Origin: Closterium sp. NIES-65 | Taxonomy: Eukaryota > Streptophyta > Zygnematophyceae > Desmidiales > Closteriaceae | Assembly: GCA_948144175.1 (NCBI GenBank) | Contig: CANXME010000532.1 | Location: forward strand, 253,001-317,000 | Length of the DNA: 64,000 nt | Reading direction: 5' to 3' | Part shown: piece after piece, positions 1-53,816 of the stretch | Layout: each line of letters opens with the position of its first letter | Position numbering within the stretch: the first letter of the stretch is position 1 | Made by a program: the position numbers and the translations under genes | The notes under the pieces: generated by a model | Databases searched by the model: none | The model's input: the letters and a program-made list of their open reading frames with translations, nothing else | Told to the model about the DNA's origin: nothing

Positions 1-662
1 GCTCGTAGGCGCGCGGCGACGTCACAATGACTCGCCACCAGTCCATGGCGGGGCCCCTGAGTAGTGAAACCGCATACCGGATCTTGGCGGCGTCCGACTC
101 GACGTAGTTGGCGTCGAAAAACACATTCATCGTGAAGACCCACGATTGAACTGTCGGGCCGCCGCGTTGGCTTGGGTCGAAGCAGGGCGGGCGTTGCGGC
201 TTGAGTGGCATTGGGGCCATCATGGCGTTCTCGCCACTTGTCGCCGCAAACTCCACGTGCCGACGGGCTTCTCGGGGCTCCCGTGGGCTTAATGCGCTCC
301 TGTTCCCTCCCATGCCGGGCATCGGTTGGGCTGCGCCATCACTGGCTGCGCCTGAGCGCTGTCCCGTGCTGTTGTGTTGCGTTGGTGTGCCGGATGAGAT
401 GAGGATGGGCTCCTCCGAATGTGCAGATGCATTGGTTGGTGCGTGTGATGTCGTCGGTACGTTCACAGTTGACTGTTGACGGGGCGGAGTCACGTTCCGC
501 CGTGAGAGTCGCGATTTCGAGCGCCGAATCCTCCAATTGACGCACGAGACGATCGAGTTGCTCCTGCGTCAACGTGGCGAGATTGAAATCGGCCATGGCG
601 GGGGTGTTGGGCAAGTTCAGCGAGAGCCTCGGTCGTGGCCGTGCGTGCTTTCGAGAGAGCAC
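1..662 (-). pseudogene. gag N-terminal fragment of G1, frameshifted
   Basis: The frame starts at 662 with the same MLSRKHARPRPR leader as G2 Gag. It then carries the heptad-like stretch around LTQEQLDRLVRQLEDSALEIATLTAERDS, which looks like a short coiled coil. At about 481-485 there is one extra G relative to G2 (GGGG against GGG), so the frame is lost after residue 60. The rest of the gag sequence to position 1 is still recognisable in another frame. The capsid domain and zinc knuckle lie outside the window. Confidence 0.85.
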
Positions 663-777
663 TACGAGCGGCGGTGCTGTGTCGCTGAGAGACGTCTACC
701 CCCCCCAAAAATTGAGATAGTGGGAAGCGAAGGTGTGGATGCGGTCCGAGATGAGATCGTAGGCTCTGAATACCAAG

Positions 778-1109
778 TGTTACGAGTGCAATTGAGTGGA
801 CGAACGAGAATTGCACTATCGAAGCAAGAATACAAATGAGCGAAGGCATGAGCGAACATTATATAGCGAAACTATAGTGGTAACGGTAATGGTCGCGCGA
901 CGAGCCTGGGACTGAGGTTGGGAAAGTGTCGAAGCGTAGGCCCGGAGCGCGGGTTACCAGCCGAGCCGTGAGGTCGGGATGCGATGTGCGAAAAGGGCGG
1001 GATGATGAATGATGCGATGGTCGCGAGTGGTAACGGTGCTGACTGAGGTGCTACAGTGATGTACGCGTTGAGCAGGGACGCGAAGTAAGGAAAAGGGAAT
1101 TTCCTTACA
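778..1109 (-). repeat. 5' LTR of G1 (332 bp)
   Basis: On the minus strand it begins TGTAAGG and ends CGTAACA. It has the same length and near-identical sequence as the G2 LTRs at 4737-5068 and at 17339-17418 plus 24967-25217. The adjacent primer-binding motif TGGTATTCAGAGCC at about 762-775 marks it as the 5' copy. Confidence 0.9.
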
Positions 1110-5127: not shown

Positions 5128-5264
5128 TGTGAGATTTGTAGAACAGGAATGTGTGGACTATGAATGAAGGCAGTACAAATATGAAACCCTAACTGGGTTG
5201 TACCTCCTATGGGATACCCCACTACAGCCTACACTATAGTATAAGCTATAGATATGTTCTGACA
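5128..5264 (-). repeat. 3' LTR of C1 (137 bp)
   Basis: Plus-strand ends are TGTGAGAT and TTCTGACA. It is adjacent to the conserved stem-loop at 5267-5287. Confidence 0.95.
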
Positions 5265-12380: not shown

Positions 12381-12517
12381 TGTGAGATTTGTAGAACAGG
12401 AATGTGTGGACTATGAATGAAGGCAGTACAAATATGAAACCCTAACTGGGTTGTACCCCCTATGGGATACCCCACTACAGCCTACACTATAGTATAAGCT
12501 ATAGATATGTTCTGACA
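12381..12517 (-). repeat. 5' LTR of C1 (137 bp)
   Basis: It matches the copy at 5128-5264 except for one C/T difference. The primer binding site adjoins it at about 12367-12380 (plus strand CCCGCTCTATACCA). Confidence 0.95.
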
Positions 12518-15500
12518 ATTGCGGCTACGTAGGTTTTCGGTGACGACGGGGTGATTTTCAACTTTCTCCAGGGGAACCCAATTGTCCTCGGTGGGGGTAC
12601 GATCTTTCCAGCGGATCAGAAACTCTACTTTGCGGGCTCCTCGAGGGTCGCGAACTCTGTGACTCAGGATCTTGTCGGGGGTGATGACTGGTTCGGTTGG
12701 TGGTCGTGTCATGCTGGTGGGTCGATGTCGTGGGAGTTGGCTAGTGGATGGCACGTAAGGGCGAAGTAAGCTAACGTGGAACGAGGGGCTGACGTACCAG
12801 TCAGCAGGGAGGAGGAGGTGCGCGGTGACTGGCGTAACCATGTGACTGATTCGAAATGGCCCACAGTATCGAGGGCGGAGTTTTGGAGTGATGGGCAGGC
12901 GGAGGTTCTGAGTGTCGAGTAAAACGAGGTCGTCGGGCTGATAAGTAATGGGTCTGCGATGGCGATCGGCGTTGCGTTTAGCGATGATGTTTGATTTTTT
13001 TATTGCTTCTGCTGCCCTGGTCCGTGCTGCTTGCAGAATCTCGGCGAACTGTTGTGCTCGTGGGACGGGGTTGTCGGGATTCGGTGTCATGGGTGCTGTT
13101 GGGTCCTGTCCGTAATTCAAGTAAAACGGCGACTGTTGCGTCGTGGCTGATGGTGCGTTATTGTATGCGAACTCGATGAGTGGCAGCTGCTGTTCCCACG
13201 TATTCGGATCGTCGCACGTGGCTCGAATCAGCTGCTCCATGGTCTGATTTGTCCGTTCCGTCTGTCCGTCGGTTTCGGGGTGATAGGATGAACTGAACTG
13301 TAAGCGCGTGCCGAGCTGCTGCCACAGGTTCCGCCAGAAGTTGCTTGTAAATTTCGTGTCCCTGTCGCTGATGATCGATGCGGGTATCCCGTGCAGTCGA
13401 ACGACGGTGGTGATGAAGAGTCGGGCGGTTTCCTCGGCTGTGATTGATTTCCTGCATGCTGCGAAATGAGCCATCTTCGTTAGTCGATCGACGATGACCA
13501 GGATCGCGTCATTCCCACTCGCCCCAGCTGGTAACCCCGTGACGAAATCCATCGTCACCTGCTGCCAAGCACGCTCTGGGGGCGGGATGGGTTGTAATTG
13601 TCCCGCCGGCCGCTTCCTGCTTGACTTCATGAGCTGGCAAGTGGGGCACGATGCCACGTGTCGTTGCACATCGGTCAACATTTCTGGCCAGTAGTAGTAC
13701 CGCTGCAGCTGCTGCCGTGTTTTTTCTACCCCGAAATGTCCCGAGGTAACTCCGTCGTGTGCTTCCTGTAACAGTAGTTCCCGCAGTAGCGTGTATCCTG
13801 GTACCCAGATGCGGTCGGTTCCAGCTTTTACGTAATAGACTCCTTTTGCCGCTGCGAATTGCTGTGAGTTGCCTCCTGTAAAGAACGGGTCTGTTTGATA
13901 TCCGTGGGTAAATAGGCCTGTCAGTAGCGGGCTGGTCTGGGCGAGTAGTATCGCGTGGATCTGGGCAGTGGGGCGGGTCAGTGCGTCGGCGATATTCGAG
14001 GCTCCTTTTTTGTATGTGACCGTACAGTGAAAATTCGACTCGAGGAAATCGAGCCATCGAATCTGTCGTGGGTTGAGGTGGGGCTGTGCGCGGAGGTACT
14101 GTAGAGATCGATGGTCTGTCCGTACTGTCACGTCTGCGCCGGTCAAGTAAGAGCGCCATACTTTGAATGCGTGCACGATCGCGAGCATTTCGCGGTCGTG
14201 TATCGGGTAATTTCGCTCAGGCGGATGTAGTTTGCGTGATTCGTAGGCGATGGGTTGGAGGCCGCCGCCGAAGTCCTGTAACAGTACAGCTCCGATGGCG
14301 ATGTCACTTGCGTCGGTAACCACTTCGAAAGGGCGGTGGGGATCAGCGATGCGTAGAACGGGTGGTGAACAGAGAACGTTTTTCAGGGCAGAGAAGGCAT
14401 CATGCTCTTTCTCCCCCCACGTAAAAGCGACCCCCTTACGCAGTAAATCAGTGAGTGGGGCTGTTAAACGTGCCATGTCGGGCACGAACCGTCGAACGTA
14501 ATTAACAAAACCTAAAAAACTCTGCAGTTCCGTGATGTTCGTCGGGGGGCGCCACGCTTTTACCGTATCCAGCTTCTTTGGGTCAATCTCAACCCCAGCC
14601 TCCGAAATGACGTGACCCAAAAACTCTAGCCTGTCCCGAAAAAACTCGCACTTGGAGCCCTTGGTGAGTAGCCGATGTTCCTCCAAAACCTTAAAAACTG
14701 CTTCAAGATCCACTAAGTGTTGCTGCTTATCCCGGCTGTAAACTAGAATATCGTCCAGGTAAACTATCACGCATTTATCTAAAAGTGGTCTAAACGCCTC
14801 GTTCATGGTCATCTGAAATGTCGCAGGCGCGTTCGTCAGCCCGAATGGCATTACTGTATACTCGAATGACCCGTACCTAGTCCTAAATGCTGTTTTGGCG
14901 CAGTCCGATGGTTCGACCCGAATCTGATGGTAACCTCCCCGTAAATCTATTTTCGAAAAGACTCGTGCTGTTCGCAGTTGGTCGATCAGTTCGTCGGCGC
15001 GGGGGATGGGGTATCGCGATTTGACTGTTACCCTGTTAAGCGCTCGGTAGTCGATGCACATGCGGAACCCTCCGTCTTTTTTCGGTGTGAACAGTATCGG
15101 TGCGGCGAACGGTGACGAGCTCGGACGGATAAACTGCTTCTCTAACAGGTAATCTAACTGCTTCCTTAACTCGTCGAGCTCGGGCTGTGTCAGTCGAAAT
15201 TGCCGCTGTACAGTTGGCTGTGCCCCCGGTTCTAACTCGATCCTATGGTCGTGCGCCCGCTGAGGTGGCAGTCTCTGTGGTAAATCATCCGGAAATATCC
15301 CCGGGAACTGTTTCAGTAGTGCCTGTAGTTCGGTCGGTACAGTTGCCAGCAGTTTCTCCAAATCACTCGGCTGCTCATCTTTTTCTACGAGTGCGATATC
15401 CACTGCGTACACGTCAGCTCCAGCAACGACAGCCCGTTTCATCGTGATGGCGTTGACCTGGACCGTCGAAGATTTGGGTGGCTGCCAGCGAGGTAGAACG

Positions 15501-16087
15501 GCCCAGTTACCATTACTTCGCACTGTGCAGCTCCCCGTCGTCCAGTCGATCCGTGGATTGTACCGTCGCAGCCAATCACGTCCCAATAAAATGTCGTGCC
15601 CATCCAGTGTCGTCGCGAGCATTTCCTGTGTAAACCCGAAGTTCCCCCCGCAGCGGACTTTTACGCGCTCCACCTTTTCCCGTATGGCCAGGGGCGTGCC
15701 GTCGACTAAGCGTGCATCTATCTCAGGTAAACATCGGTTAAGCGTTAACTGTAATTTTCGTGCGGTTGCGGTATTAACTAAGCTGTGGCTTGCTCCTCCG
15801 TCAATGAAGATCTTCACTGCTGCTCCCTGTATTTTCCCGTAGATCAGTACCGGGCAATCCGTCGCTGTACCCTCCTTATTCATCCGAGCCCGATCGATGG
15901 CGTGAATCGGTACTGTGACTCGGTGAGGGTCGGTGTGGTTGGGCGAGCAGGCAGTCTCGTCAGTAGTTGGCCCAACTTCTACTGACTGCTGGCGTTTCCC
16001 TGCCTCCGAGACTCCCTCCCCTGCTCTGCTCCTCGACGCCTCAGCTCCTCTGGACATTCGCTCTTGCGATGGCCCGGCCGGTTGCAA
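12518..16087 (-). CDS. pol: G2 Pol polyprotein: protease, reverse transcriptase, RNase H, integrase, chromodomain
   Basis: About 1190 residues in one open frame. Order: aspartic protease with IDGGASHSLV (DGG where DSG or DTG is usual); reverse transcriptase with [16 protein letters not shown] and the catalytic YLDD; RNase H with DASDIAIGAVL and TDHRSLQYL; integrase with an HHCC zinc finger (HFGVEKTRQQLQ...CPTCQLMK) and a DDE core (MDFVTGLP, SDRDTKFTSNFW, ETDGQTER); a GPF module (RPRYCGPFRI); and a C-terminal chromodomain (EFLIRWKDRTPTEDNWVPLEKV). Expression needs the -1 frameshift at 16000-15994. Copia C1 landed at 12517 and cut off the last about ten codons, whose continuation is at 5127-5095. 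As it stands the frame runs into the C1 LTR and stops at 12482. Reading across the empty site, the end matches the C-terminus still seen in G3. Confidence 0.92.
15959..16000 (-). promoter_or_regulatory. Programmed -1 ribosomal frameshift signal between G2 gag and pol
   Basis: Minus strand: heptamer GGGAAAC at 16000-15994, in the required phase (CA-G GGA AAC in gag). Then a 7-nt spacer (15993-15987), then an 8-bp perfect stem GTCAGTAG (15986-15979) with CTACTGAC (15966-15959) around a 12-nt loop that can itself form a small TTG:CAA pair. Slipping one base back gives GGG AAA CGC, which is the pol frame. The gag stop codon is inside the 5' arm. In G3 both stem arms are kept although the loop differs, while the heptamer has decayed to GGGAAGC. 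Confidence 0.85.
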
Positions 16088-17223
16088 GCAAAGCAGCGCC
16101 CTCTAAACGGCGCGGCAGCTGCATTCGCTGCGACGGCATGTACAGTGGCGTGCTCGGTCGGTCCCCGAGGACGATGTCCGTAATAGGACCCCGGTCTCGG
16201 TCGGCGTAGGATATCGATTTTCTCGGCGAGCGCGAGGATCTCGTTGAAATTCGAGAGCCCGCGTAGCATTATCTCGTGCGAGATGTCCGGCTTTAGCCCT
16301 CCGACGTAACGGTCCACCCGCTCCGCCTCGTGCATGTAGCCGACCTGTTCGCAAAGTGCGAGAAACCCGCTGGTGTAGTGTTGAACTGACCCGAGCTGGC
16401 GCCAAGTGCGCAGTTTCTGACGCGCCGAAATCGAGGCCGCGATCGGCTCAAAGCGCGCCCGAAGTCCTGCGCACCACGCATCCCACGTGCTGTATTGGGC
16501 GGTTTCGCAGAACGAACTCCAGGTAACAGCTGGACCCGAGGGCCCTTCCTTGTGCGACGGTGGCTCGTAGGCGCGCTGCGACGTCACAATGACTCGCCAC
16601 CAGTCCATGGCAGGGCCCCTGAGTAGTGAAACCGCATACCGGATCTTGGCGGCGTCCGACTCGACGTAGTTGGCGCCAAAAAACACATTCATCGTGAAGA
16701 CCCACGATTGAACTGTCGGGCCGCCGCGTTGGCTTGGGTCGAAGCAAGGCGGGCGTTGCGGCTTGAGTGGCATTGGGGCCATCATGGCGTTCTCGCCACT
16801 TGTCGCCGCAAACTCCACGTGCCGACGGGCTTCTCGGGGCTCCCGTGGGCTTAATGCGCTCCTGTTCCCTCCCATGCCGGGCATCGGTTGGGCTGCGCCG
16901 TCACTGGCTGCGCCTGAGCGCTGTCCCGTGCTGTTGTGTTGCGTTGGTGTGCCGGATGAGATGACGATGGGCTCCTCCAAATGTGCAGATTCATTTGTTT
17001 GTGCGTGTGATGTCGTCGGTACGTTCACCGTTGACTGTTGACGGGCGGAGTCACGTTCCGCCGTGAGAGTCGCGATTTCGAGCGCCGAATCCTCCAATTG
17101 ACGCACGAGACGATCGAGTTGCTCCTGCGTCAACGTGGCGAGATTGAAATCGGCCATGGCGGGGGTGTTGGGCAAGCTCAGCGAGAGCCTCGGTCGTGGC
17201 CGTGCGTGCTTTCGAGAGAGCAC
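15979..17223 (-). CDS. gag: G2 Gag polyprotein (capsid and nucleocapsid)
   Basis: 414 residues and intact. It forms the cytoplasmic virus-like particle that packages the element RNA. Near the N-terminus is a short coiled-coil-like stretch (LTQEQLDRLVRQLEDSALEIA). The middle holds a Ty3-type capsid domain (WDAWCAGLRARFEPIAA, LCEQVGYMHEAERVDRYVGGLKP), and near the C-terminus is one zinc knuckle CFACNRPGHRKSEC (CX2CX4HX4C). I chose the start at 17223 because the same MLSRKHARPRPR leader is kept in G1 and G3. The stop (TAG, 15981-15979) lies five codons after a slippery heptamer and inside a predicted stem, so a share of ribosomes should pass into pol, which overlaps by 109 nt in the -1 frame. 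Confidence 0.92.
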   Translation of the reverse strand: MLSRKHARPRPRLSLSLPNTPAMADFNLATLTQEQLDRLVRQLEDSALEIATLTAERDSARQQSTVNVPTTSHAQTNESAHLEEPIVISSGTPTQHNSTGQRSGAASDGAAQPMPGMGGNRSALSPREPREARRHVEFAATSGENAMMAPMPLKPQRPPCFDPSQRGGPTVQSWVFTMNVFFGANYVESDAAKIRYAVSLLRGPAMDWWRVIVTSQRAYEPPSHKEGPSGPAVTWSSFCETAQYSTWDAWCAGLRARFEPIAASISARQKLRTWRQLGSVQHYTSGFLALCEQVGYMHEAERVDRYVGGLKPDISHEIMLRGLSNFNEILALAEKIDILRRPRPGSYYGHRPRGPTEHATVHAVAANAAAAPFRGRCFACNRPGHRKSECPEELRRRGAEQGRESRRQGNASSQ

Positions 17224-17338: not shown

Positions 17339-17418
17339 TGTTACGAGTGCAATTGAGTGAACGAACGAGAATTGCACTATCGAAGCAAGAATACAAATGA
17401 GCGAAGGCATGAGCGAAC
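17339..17418 (-). repeat. 5' LTR of G2, part nearest gag (split by C2)
   Basis: These are the first 80 plus-strand bases of the G2 5' LTR, up to the C2 insertion. Positions 17414-17418 (CGAAC) are the C2 target duplication. The LTR resumes at 24967. Confidence 0.93.
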
Positions 17419-17550
17419 TGTCAAACATTATATATGTTATGCTTGTGTAGGCTACAGTGGGTTAGCCTATAGGGGGTACACAATTCTAGGGTTTCCTACT
17501 TGTACTCATTTCACTGCTAGTTCATTCATTCCTGTTCGCTTATTCTCACA
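17419..17550 (+). repeat. 5' LTR of C2 (132 bp)
   Basis: TGTCAAAC...TTCTCACA, followed at once by the primer binding site. Confidence 0.96.
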
Positions 17551-24829: not shown

Positions 24830-24961
24830 TGTGAAACATTATATGTGTTATGCTTGTGTAGGCTACAGTGGGTTAGCCTATAGGGGGTACACAATTCTAG
24901 GGTTTCCTACTTGTACTCATTTCACTGCTAGTTCATTCATTCCTGTTCGCTTATTCTCACA
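24830..24961 (+). repeat. 3' LTR of C2 (132 bp)
   Basis: TGTGAAAC...TTCTCACA. It has the same length as the 5' copy, with two base differences. Confidence 0.96.
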
Positions 24962-42818: not shown

Positions 42819-42949
42819 TGTGAAAATCAATGAACAGGAATGAAATGACTAAGTCAGAGTTGGGAACAAATACAACCCTAGAAAGCTATACCCCATATGT
42901 GCTACCCCACTATAGCCTACAAACATGCATCAGCTATGATAATCTGACA
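42819..42949 (-). repeat. 5' LTR of C3 (131 bp)
   Basis: It matches 35600-35730 apart from two bases. The primer site adjoins it on the left (plus strand CCCGCTCTATACCA at 42805-42818). Confidence 0.95.
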
Positions 42950-43347
42950 TTTCGGGCAGATTTAATCGAGCGTTTCGAACCAATTAATACAACCTACATG
43001 GCGCGGCAGCAGATACACCGACACAAGCAATACAGTAGTCTAACACAGTACACGCAGCAGATGGAGTTACTGTTCAACCGCATCACCGACCTGACCGAAG
43101 GCGAAAAAATCCAGGCGTACACCGAAGGCTTAAAAATGGAGATTCGGCGGCAGGTGATTGCGGCGAATTACAACAGCTACAGAGACATCGTGCGTGCTAC
43201 CGAGCGATACGACACGCTGACTCGAGGTGAACCCGAAACACGACGCTTCACGCCGAACCGTACATTCGGCACGGAGCGATCGGCACCCCCCACGTTCGCC
43301 GAACCGATGGATATCGACAAATACGACGCGAAGCAGCAGCCGACAAA

Positions 43348-46300
43348 ATGCGAATTTTGCGGCGCAGCAGGACATCAGTTTTTGTCGTGCTACAAAATGA
43401 AGAAAGCACGTGCGGCACTCCGGGACGGAAACAGTGGAGCACCCCCGAAGTAAAAAAACGGGAATCGCCAGTAGCCGCGGATCGACCTGGCGATCGCGTA
43501 AAGATCCGAAAAGTAGGAAAAGGCGACAACGTGGCGACTTCGGAGCGGGTGAAAAAAGGAGAAAAAGCTGGCGCGAATTTAAAACGTCACGACCGATCGG
43601 CATCAGGGGAAATCGCCGAGGCGAATGGAGGCTCCGCGAAAAAAGACTCTGCACCGACCGGGAAACTCCAGCCGAACACCCACGAAAGTAAGAATTCGTT
43701 AAAAGTATCCTATAAAGATGCTCTAACGAAGAATATTGCTTCTCGTGGTTTACAAGCCTTCAAAAAATTCAGGGGAGGTCTAGAGGCCAAGAAAAAGCCT
43801 TTAGAAATTATTCAGGTACCTGAGAAGTTGGGCAAAATACTACGGAGCGTAGAGAAGGGTCGTGCGTTCCGTGGAGTTAATATTCTCTCCCCGCAGCACA
43901 GTGTTAAGGCTCCCCGTCGCCCACAGGTGAAGCCTACACAGCTGCCAAGGCTTAGAGGAGACATCCAGGCTCAGGAAAAAATATACAAGCCTCGGAAAAA
44001 TCCTCCTACCCCCCGGGTGAAGTTGGAAAGCGCTGAGTCAGGTATAGGAAAAAGGGAAAGCATTCAGTTTGATGTACCCTATGATCCTATTAACAAGACC
44101 CTCTTTGGCTTCTCAGCACAGCAGAAACCACTACTCCTCGAGGTGTTATGCAATGGGCGACGACTCCAGGCACTGGTGGACAGCGGTGCATCTCACTCGG
44201 TGTGTGACCGCGGAGCATTGGAGAAAATTGGAGAGAAGGCGGAAGAGACCCAGTTTTCAGCAACCATGGTGGACGGTACGAAGCTTCCTATCCACGGCGA
44301 AGCATCACTGCCACTGCATATAGGTGCGTTGAGGTGGAAGCCAAAGCTACCAGTCACCAACATCAAAGGATTAGATTTTATCTTGGGGCGAGATTTCCTG
44401 AAGCAGTTCAACCCCGAGATCCATTGGGTCAACAGCAAGGTGTGCATCTACAACAACGGGAAACGAGTGGAGCTGCAAAGCTGGACGGATACAGGGGACG
44501 TACCTGAAACGACACTGGCACGGTTTGAACAGACGGTGAACAAGAGTAACACGGGTTAGCTAGCACTGGTTATGGCAGCAGCAGAGGAGGAGAAGCCGAG
44601 TTCCGAGCTACCTGCAGCAGTGAAAGAGGTCTTGGAGCAGTACAAGGATATAATTCCCGACGACCTACCTGCAGGCGTACCTCCAGCACGCACCCACGAG
44701 CACGAGATCGTGGAGGAACCAGGTGCGAAACCCGTCTCACGTGCACCATACCGACTGAGTCCGACTGAACTGACAGACGGGAAAAAACAGATAGAGTATC
44801 TACTGGACAGACAACTGATCCGCCCATCCACCTCTCCCTACGGCGCACCAGTTCTCTTCACTCCAAAACCAGACGGCAGTCTACGGATGTGCATCGACTA
44901 CCGCGCACTGAACAAACAGACAGTCAAAAACAAATATCCCATACCGCGCATGGACGACCTACTCGATCAACTGCGTAGAGCAACAGTATTTTCGAAGCTG
45001 GACCTACGATCGGGCTACTGGCAGATCAAGATGGCAGACAACTCCATCCACAAGACAGCGTTCCGGACCAGATACGGCTCCTACGAATACTTGGTGATGC
45101 CGTTCGGACTCTGCAACGCACCAGCAACGTTTCATGCGGAGATGAATCACATCTTACGACCCCTGCTGGACGAATGCGTGGTGGTGTACCTGGACGACAT
45201 TCTCATCTACTCCAAGAACATGAAGGAGCACGTGGAGCATCTGCGGAAGGTGTTCGGGATCCTGAGGAAAAACAAGTTCTACGTGAAGCTGTCAAAGAGC
45301 GACTTCGCCCTGAAGAAGGTGCAGTTTCTCGGGCACATGGTGAGTGCCGAGGGCGTACACGTGGACCCACGGAAGATCGAAGCCGTCAAGAAGTGGAAAG
45401 TACCAGAGAACGTGAAGGAGTTACAGCAGTTCCTAGGCTTCGCCAACTACTACAACAGGTTCGTGCCGCAGTACGCTAAGATAGCAGCGCCACTGACCGA
45501 CCTACTGAAAAAGGATACGCCCTACAAATGGGATACCCTTCATCAGCAAGCGATGGAGCAGCTACAGACAGCACTGACTACAGTGCCAGTACTCATCTTG
45601 CCGGATCCAGACAAGGACTACGTGGTGGAAGCAGACGCTAGTGACCAAGCAGTCGGAGCAGTACTGATGCAGGATCACGGACGCGATTTGCAGCCCATCG
45701 CCTACCTCAGTAAAAAGCTACACGGAGCAGAACTTAACTACCCCATTCACGACAAGGAAGCCTTAGCGATAGTCATAGCCTTCAAGGCGTGGAGGTGTTA
45801 CCTAGAGGGAGCCAAGACTACAATCTATACTGACCACTGCAGTCTCAAATCCCTGAAGTCACAACCGACACTCTCACGACGACAGGTGCGGTGGGTGGAT
45901 TTCCTGGAAACTCACTTCCACTACGACATCGTCTACAAGCCCGGGCTACACAACAAGGCAGACGCGTTGAGCCGCCCCGGACATGTAGCAGGCATCCAGC
46001 TCGACGGGATGAACCCTCTGCTCAAAGGTCTATTCCAACATGGGTACTCCGTGGACGCAGAGATTGCTACAGCACAGACCAAGAAGCTATTACAGTGGGA
46101 GAAAGACTTAGCTGTAAGGAAGGGTTCAGGAAAGATTTGGGTACCGAATTACGCCCCGCTACGGCAGATCCTATTGGAGGAGTTTCACGACGTACCTTAC
46201 GCGGGACATTTCGGGAGCAACAAGACGTTAGCAGGGATAGCGAAGTATTACTACTGGCCCGGGATGGCAGCAGACGTGCAGCAGTTCGTCACCTCTTGCG

Positions 46301-52500: not shown

Positions 52501-53816
52501 CGGTACTGTGACTCGGTGAGGGTCGGTGGGGTTGGGCGAGCAGGCAGTCTCGTCAGTAGTTGGCCCGATTCCTACTGACTGCTGGCGCTTCCCTGCCTTG
52601 GAGACTCCCTCCCCTGCTCTGCTCCGCGGCACCTCAGCTCCTCTGGGCATTCACTCTTACGATGGCCCGGCCTATTGCAAGCAAAGCAGCGCCCCTTAAA
52701 CGGCGCAACAGCTGCATTCGTCGCAACGTCATGTACGGTGGCGTGCTCGATCGGTCCCCGAGGGCGATGTCCATAGTAGGACCCGGGTCTCGGACGGCGC
52801 AAAATGTCGATTTTCTCGGCGAGCGCGAGAATCTCGTTGAAATTCGAGAGCCCGCGTAGCATGATCTCGTGCGAGATGTCCGGCTTCAGCCCTCCGACGT
52901 AACGGTCCACCCGCTCCGCCTCGTGCATGTAGCCGACTTGCTCGCATAATGCGAGAAAACCGCTCGTGTAGTCTTGAACCGACCCGAGCTGCCGCCAAGT
53001 GCGCAGTCTCTGACGCGCCGAAATAGAAGCCGCGATTGGCTCGAAGCGCGCCCGAAGCCCTGCGCACCACGCATCCCACGTGCTGTACTGGGCGGTTTCG
53101 CAGAATGAACTCCAAGTGTCAGCTGGACCCGTGGGCCCTTCCTCTTGCGACGGTGGCTCGTAGGCGCGTGGCGACGTCACGATGACTCGCCACCAGTCCA
53201 TGGCGGGGCCCCTCAACAGCAAGACAGCGTATGTGATCTTCGCTGCGTCCGACTCGACGTAGTTTGCGTCGAAAAATACGTTCATCGTGAAGACCCGCGA
53301 CTGAACCGTCGGACCTCCACGCTGACCTGGGTCGAAACAGGGCGGGCGCTGCGGCTTGAGTGGCATTGGTGCCATGATGGCCTAGTCGCCACTTGTCGCC
53401 GCGAACTCCACGTGCCGACGGGCTTCACGAGGCTCCCGCGGGCTTAGCGCGACCCTGTTTCTCCCCATGCCCGGCATCGGTTGGGCGGCGCCATCACTGG
53501 CTGCGCCTGAACGCTGTCCCACGCTGCCATTCTGTGTTGGTGTGCCTGATGAAACGACGATCGGCTCCTCCGATTGGGCACGTGCATTTGCAAGTGCGTG
53601 TGGTGGCGCCGGAGTATTCACCGTAGATTGCTGACGCGCGGAGTCACGTTCCGCCGTGAGTTTCGCAATTTCGAGCGCCGATTCTTCAACTTGGCGTACG
53701 AGACGGTCGAGTTGCTTCTGCGTCAGTGTCACGAGAGTAAATTTGGCCATGGCGGGGGTGTCGGGCAAGCTCAACGAGAGCCTCTGTCGTGGCCGTGCGT
53801 GCTTACGAGAGAGCAC
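49566..53816 (-). pseudogene. G3 gag and pol, degenerate (C-terminal part at 29675-29938)
   Basis: Gag starts at 53816 (MLSRKHARPRQR) and has a TAG at 53384-53382. The capsid and zinc knuckle (CFACNRPGHRKSEC) follow to 52572. In pol the protease motif has become INGGASHCLV, a TAG at 52080-52078 replaces the Trp of LPRWQ, and about 190 bp of reverse transcriptase before RTRYGSF are missing near 51600. RT, RNase H and integrase pieces continue to 49566, with indels in the integrase core near 50080 and 49950. The last segment, with the chromodomain (EFLIRWKDCTPTGDNWVPL), lies at 29938-29675 beyond C4. Not functional. Confidence 0.9.

Follow-up and report, generated by a model that had tools for sequence, protein, structure and literature searches.

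A probable −1 frameshift signal at the gag–pol junction of an abundant chromovirus family in Closterium

The stretch of DNA analysed here, a window of 64 kb, contains three element copies designated G1, G2 and G3, of which G1 provides the main gag–pol junction (Table 1). The first ATG of the G1 gag ORF probably lies near 17157. The G1 pol frame encodes an aspartic protease, a reverse transcriptase (RT), an RNase H and an integrase in the order characteristic of Ty3/gypsy elements, and the integrase is followed by a chromodomain scoring just above the cut-off (PF00385, 26.7 bits against 25.1). On its sequence G1 is thus a chromovirus, a Ty3/gypsy element with a chromodomain. A site located by eye, TGGTATTCAGAGCC, which we take to be a primer site of the tRNA type, speaks against membership of the Tcn1 clade, which is described as self-primed (PMC6317226).

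Table 1. Features of the G1 junction and of the G3 junction copy (window coordinates)
Feature	Position	Strand	Remark
gag ORF	15979..17223	minus	Retrotrans_gag domain and zinc knuckle
pol frame	12482..16087	minus	entered at heptamer; protease, RT, RNase H, integrase, chromodomain
Slippery heptamer G GGA AAC	16000-15994	minus	in gag phase
Spacer GCCAGCA	15993-15987	minus	7 nt; sequence differs between lineages
Stem S1, 5' arm GTCAGTAG	15986-15979	minus	holds gag stop
gag stop codon TAG	15981-15979	minus	
S1 loop	15978-15967	minus	12 nt; variable between lineages
Stem S1, 3' arm CTACTGAC	15966-15959	minus	
S2 loop arm GTTGGGC	15970..15976	minus	possible pseudoknot
S2 downstream partner GCCCAAC	15938..15944	minus	possible
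Outer stem S0, 5' arm AGTCTC	16008..16013	minus	upstream of heptamer; suggestive
Outer stem S0, 3' arm GAGACT	15953..15958	minus	abuts S1; suggestive
G3 junction copy	52572..52593	minus	heptamer decayed to GGGAAGC; S1 5' arm kept

A preliminary description of the locus had called the element a plant-type Ty3. The term plant-type needs narrowing: the named relatives of the Gag protein, among the best 120 of 165 and of 176 matches, come from strains of Closterium, a streptophyte alga, and an RT tree puts G1 and G2 in separate Closterium clades, the land-plant elements lying apart. The tree was made by a quick method from 57 usable of 92 rows, with no Sushi or Tf1 reference, and one row in its groups, P0213 (Tanacetum), is wrongly labelled as Closterium. 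No direct repeat of the two ends of G1 was found, the 3' end running into another repeat. Both ends (12401-12517 and 17416-17506) run into a short repeat whose copies are inverted relative to each other and which is also present near 5148-5264 and 24830-24911, so that G1 looks nested, with its 3' end cut. The window also starts with a fragment of another gag of the G1 type (positions 1-857, minus strand), which matches G1 at 98% identity.

Retroviral −1 frameshift sites combine a heptamer X XXY YYZ, in phase with the upstream frame, with a spacer and a downstream structure. At the G1 junction the gag frame reads CAG GGA AAC GCC AGC AGT CAG TAG, the last base of CAG and the next six bases forming the heptamer, and S1 is a perfect 8-bp stem in which GTCAGTAG pairs with CTACTGAC, the arms being self-complementary. 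S1 begins 7 nt from the heptamer, within the range of about 5-9 nt typical of −1 signals. The frames, heptamer, spacing and stem are thus directly legible, and the in-phase heptamer, 7-nt spacer and 8-bp stem containing the gag stop that had been claimed for this junction were all read at 16000-15959. The new frame is likewise pol as described, since a frame check of G1 found the −1 frame open through the heptamer, where it reads GGG AAA CGC and continues as a 1201-codon pol ORF. When the 187-nt region was subjected to 200,000 dinucleotide shuffles, an in-phase canonical heptamer arose in 0.93%, and four shuffles combined such a heptamer with a perfect 8-bp stem whose start lay 5-9 nt further on. 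GGGAAAC alone shows no enrichment in the window, occurring 7 times where 8.07 are expected; what is unusual at the junction is the phase and the stem, not the heptamer itself.

The element's own genome (874 Mb in 2,400 contigs) was searched. A pattern demanding the heptamer and both S1 arms, and allowing a spacer of 4-10 nt and a loop of 8-16 nt, found the complete signal at 1,685 places, against none for the reversed control, and all 100 of these places that were listed span 42 nt, corresponding to a spacer of 7 and a loop of 12. A further pattern gave 690 matches for a second subfamily, in which Gag ends in GNAGSQ (subfamily 2). Because the patterns demand heptamer bases or arms, the two counts show abundance and geometry and are no evidence of conservation. 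Junctions were read in 28 G1-type and 30 G3-type copies, including the window's own G1 and G3, drawn from the best 40 of 3,482 and the best 40 of 1,984 first-look candidates. GGGAAAC is present in 54 of these 58 junctions and lost in four, and both S1 arms are exact in 53; as these are close copies, such fractions alone say little on selection.

Thirty loci of subfamily 2 were also read. GGGAAAC is present in these loci, the heptamer and 5' arm being largely demanded by the pattern, and the exact S1 3' arm, which the pattern does not demand, is found in 27 of the 30; spacer, loop and flanks differ from those of G1. Some of the listed matches to the subfamily 2 pattern read AGGAAAC. When G1 was compared with one subfamily 2 copy, the heptamer (7/7) and the S1 arms (16/16) were identical, whereas identity was 4/7 in the spacer, 7/12 in the loop, 7/14 in the next 14 nt and 98/176 (56%) at third codon positions of downstream pol. 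Identical 8-mers make up 15% of all those in the stretch compared, so the retention of one arm alone would be no surprise. The preliminary description had proposed a −1 reading and selection on the structure, and both are well supported at the sequence level by the 1,685 complete signals together with arms matching at all 16 positions between subfamilies whose pol third positions have diverged this far.

The sameness of the signal extends to the encoded proteins and to more distant copies. Among 33 Gag C-termini picked by pattern from 120 listed, N follows the G at the heptamer in 29, the remainder comprising one with N offset by a residue, two with S or K and one chance match; the residue before the G varies (Q, P, L, R or H). 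In a diverged lineage of two copies, L096 and L104, the heptamer is G GGA AAA with its phase unchanged; Gag ends in GSGKDTS or GSGKETS and pol starts with GKR. The lineages compared leave out a subfamily with CCG before GGA AAC. Twenty further copies, L096 and L104 among them, were picked by hand from the pattern listings for their unusual loops and, with three reference rows, gave a set of 23 rows; the heptamer is lost in six of the 20 (L094, L095, L097, L105, L106 and L111). Three copies sharing one rare loop lie about 13 kb apart at 4.299-4.327 Mb of contig C430, perhaps through local duplication.

These data bear on the idea that the frame offset is a product of decay, pol having once been in frame with gag and an ancestral one-base change having spread. 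The copies in the window are indeed decayed in places, and distant relatives outside the family have fused gag–pol, namely P0218 (metagenomic) and P0177 and P0182 (both from land plants). However, the −1 relation with a canonical heptamer was read in G1 and G3 types, in subfamily 2 and in L096 and L104, and the number of places bearing the complete signal also counts against decay, which we regard as extremely improbable. Copies with gag and pol fused in one frame, named in the preliminary description as grounds for rejecting frameshifting, were not seen at the DNA level in the family of G1, although some public Closterium gene models are fused. The public models P0058, P0067, P0102 and P0009 bridge or bend the frameshift, each differently.

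The G3 copy in the window had been presented as a diverged copy with both stem arms unchanged. The arms are as stated, but the heptamer is broken, which had gone unmentioned and weakens the argument; reading GGGAAGC, this copy cannot slip in the standard way. Apart from this copy, 29 of the G3 type were read, and 27 of them have GGGAAAC. Where G1 has a Met in front of the protease, G3 has Thr, which argues against a separate pol start in G3.

Covariation across family copies, suggested earlier as a check on the stem, was found at one S1 pair and is thin, the rows having been selected with patterns in which the arms were required. Of the 23 rows, 8 have C-G at pair 3, 11 have U-G and 4 have U-A, the selecting patterns allowing just these combinations, and in the diverged lineage of L096 and L104 this pair is U-A in one copy and U-G in the other. 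Among 87 rows with the C-to-T change at pair 3 in the 5' arm, 13 also have A in the 3' arm (12 places, one counted on both strands), a candidate compensation. In folding analyses the 69 nt downstream of the G1 heptamer fold best without S1 (z −1.65), and S1 is also absent from the best folds of 57-nt stretches of G1 and G3 and of a 78-nt stretch of G1. It is present in folds of subfamily 2 stretches, of a 78-nt G3 stretch and of 125-126 nt of G1. The alternative G1 fold uses bases of the spacer, which would presumably lie within the ribosome. Most subfamily 2 loops read (L059-L088) carry, at the apex of a stable stem, the palindrome GGGCCC, an arrangement that could let two genomic RNAs kiss.

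The stimulator might be an H-type pseudoknot formed by S1 and S2 rather than a plain stem. A 7-bp S2 as in G1 occurred in 21 of 3000 shuffles, the core GGGC/GCCC is common to G1, G3 and subfamily 2, pair 3 having changed once from T-A to C-G, and among the 23 rows pair 4 forms in 20 and pairs 6 and 7 in 18 each. Pairs 1, 2 and 5, however, form in only 10, 8 and 12 rows, and the longest S2 is at chance level both in G3 (4 bp, 1982 of 3000 shuffles) and in subfamily 2 (5 bp, 883 of 3000). S2 was accordingly dropped as a feature of the family, and a pseudoknot stimulator is considered unlikely.

It is somewhat more plausible, while still tentative, that the heptamer sits in a larger structure, in which S0 closes around the slippery site and either modulates frameshifting or has some other function in the RNA. 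AGTCTC pairs with GAGACT in the folds of 125-126 nt, and subfamily 2 has GACC/GGTC at this position, preserving four of the six pairs, two of them through double changes, with pairs 1 and 6 lost. Pairs 3, 4 and 5 each form in 19 of the 23 rows, pair 4 being T-A in 12 and A-T in 7. In the fixed register no S0 pair forms in L096 or L104; by eye these copies have a 6-bp version of their own in another register (AGGGTC/GACCCT and GGGGTC/GACCCC, respectively), the two differing by one A-T to G-C change. Against a role in slippage, the upstream arm would be in the ribosome while the heptamer is decoded. By a hand estimate two of the three double changes would match by luck about one time in four, and S0 is therefore only a suggestive lead.

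Splicing is the main rival to frameshifting. A short intron over the junction would join gag and pol, as in Ogre elements, and the heptamer would be incidental. The S1 5' arm starts with the donor-like GTCAGT, several public gene models have gag and RT in one protein (for example P0022, P0031, P0058 and P0184), and P0058, P0067 and P0102, which belong to the family, run from gag into pol over the stop; moreover, gag and pol are under splicing control in some plant elements (PMC12786077 and PMC6317226). Yet each of these last three models places the join elsewhere, the result to be expected when software bridges a stop, and a splice signal does not demand an in-phase heptamer. An intron at the junction thus appears very unlikely.

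G2 (42830-44560, plus strand) belongs to a family distinct from that of G1. In the window copy pol is −1 relative to gag, with C GGA AAC before the stop, A AAA AAC over it and seven A residues after the T of TAA. In five relatives (L089-L093) pol is +1 relative to gag; four of them stop at this TAA, which the fifth has lost. The pattern used to find them fixes the A-run at six after a variable base, and so misses seven-A copies like that in the window. G2 was set aside as a candidate second −1 family; either frame relation may be the usual one, and either may be a recoding site.

The signal is real, and we consider it highly probable, from the sequence features described above, that it is functional and that the G1 junction is the gag–pol −1 recoding site of an abundant chromovirus in a Closterium-like alga. 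Most ribosomes would translate gag as far as the TAG and terminate there, producing Gag. A minority, stalled at G GGA AAC by the S1 stem that follows 7 nt further on, would slip back by one base in the P and A sites, from GGA to GGG and from AAC to AAA, and the slipped ribosomes would continue in the pol frame to give a Gag-Pol fusion at a low ratio to Gag. Slippage itself, its rate and the action of S1 as stimulator are predicted features of this model.

An Rfam search returned two matches, far below the cut-off, and an exact 22-mer of the junction had no match in viral contigs. In mammalian systems G_GGA_AAC ranks with the heptamers most prone to shifting, and retroviral gag-pro/pol −1 sites share with G1 an in-phase X XXY YYZ heptamer, a spacer and a downstream structure (PMC5009743); G1 differs from them in being a chromovirus and in having the gag stop inside the 5' arm of the stem. 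PEG10, a mammalian gene derived from a sushi-type Ty3/gypsy element, also has GGGAAAC at the gag-to-protease junction with a short spacer and a downstream structure (PMC2800197). There the spacer is 5 nt and the structure a pseudoknot, whereas G1 has 7 nt and a stem, a pseudoknot being unsupported outside G1, and belongs to a multi-copy retrotransposon of an alga. The chromoviruses Sroscv4 and Sroscv5 of the choanoflagellate Salpingoeca rosetta are set apart by their description, with 6-bp motifs and a host outside the green lineage.

Land-plant chromoviruses resemble G1 in protein order and chromodomain. Sugar-beet chromoviruses and most plant LTR groups, unlike G1, have a single ORF (PMC3605345 and PMC6317226), in agreement with the earlier statement that many plant chromoviruses have a single gag–pol frame. 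A 2003 survey, as related in a review, knew of just two plant types in which the frames are separate, both with pol in +1; these, the Sireviruses and another type, share separate gag and pol frames with G1 and differ from it in the +1 shift and in structure (PMC5009743). In the portions of the open-licence literature searched, no report of a −1 site in a green-lineage chromovirus was found. As predicted here, −1 gag–pol frameshifting would be used by a large chromovirus family whose algal host belongs to the group nearest to land plants, where the solutions described in the parts of the literature searched are single-frame and +1. The natural variants of spacer, loop and flanks around a constant heptamer and stem offer a test set for what green-lineage ribosomes need in order to slip, and predicted proteins in genomes of this kind may be bridged or cut short where a frameshift site lies. 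As a speculation that we hold to be rather doubtful, streptophyte algae may keep an old −1 strategy in their chromoviruses, with the slippery site clasped by the upstream arm and the arm abutting S1 and with refolding setting the ratio of Gag to Gag-Pol, a strategy that land-plant chromoviruses would have lost when gag and pol fused. The mechanism is known from retroviruses and PEG10; its use in a chromovirus of a streptophyte alga is the new part.
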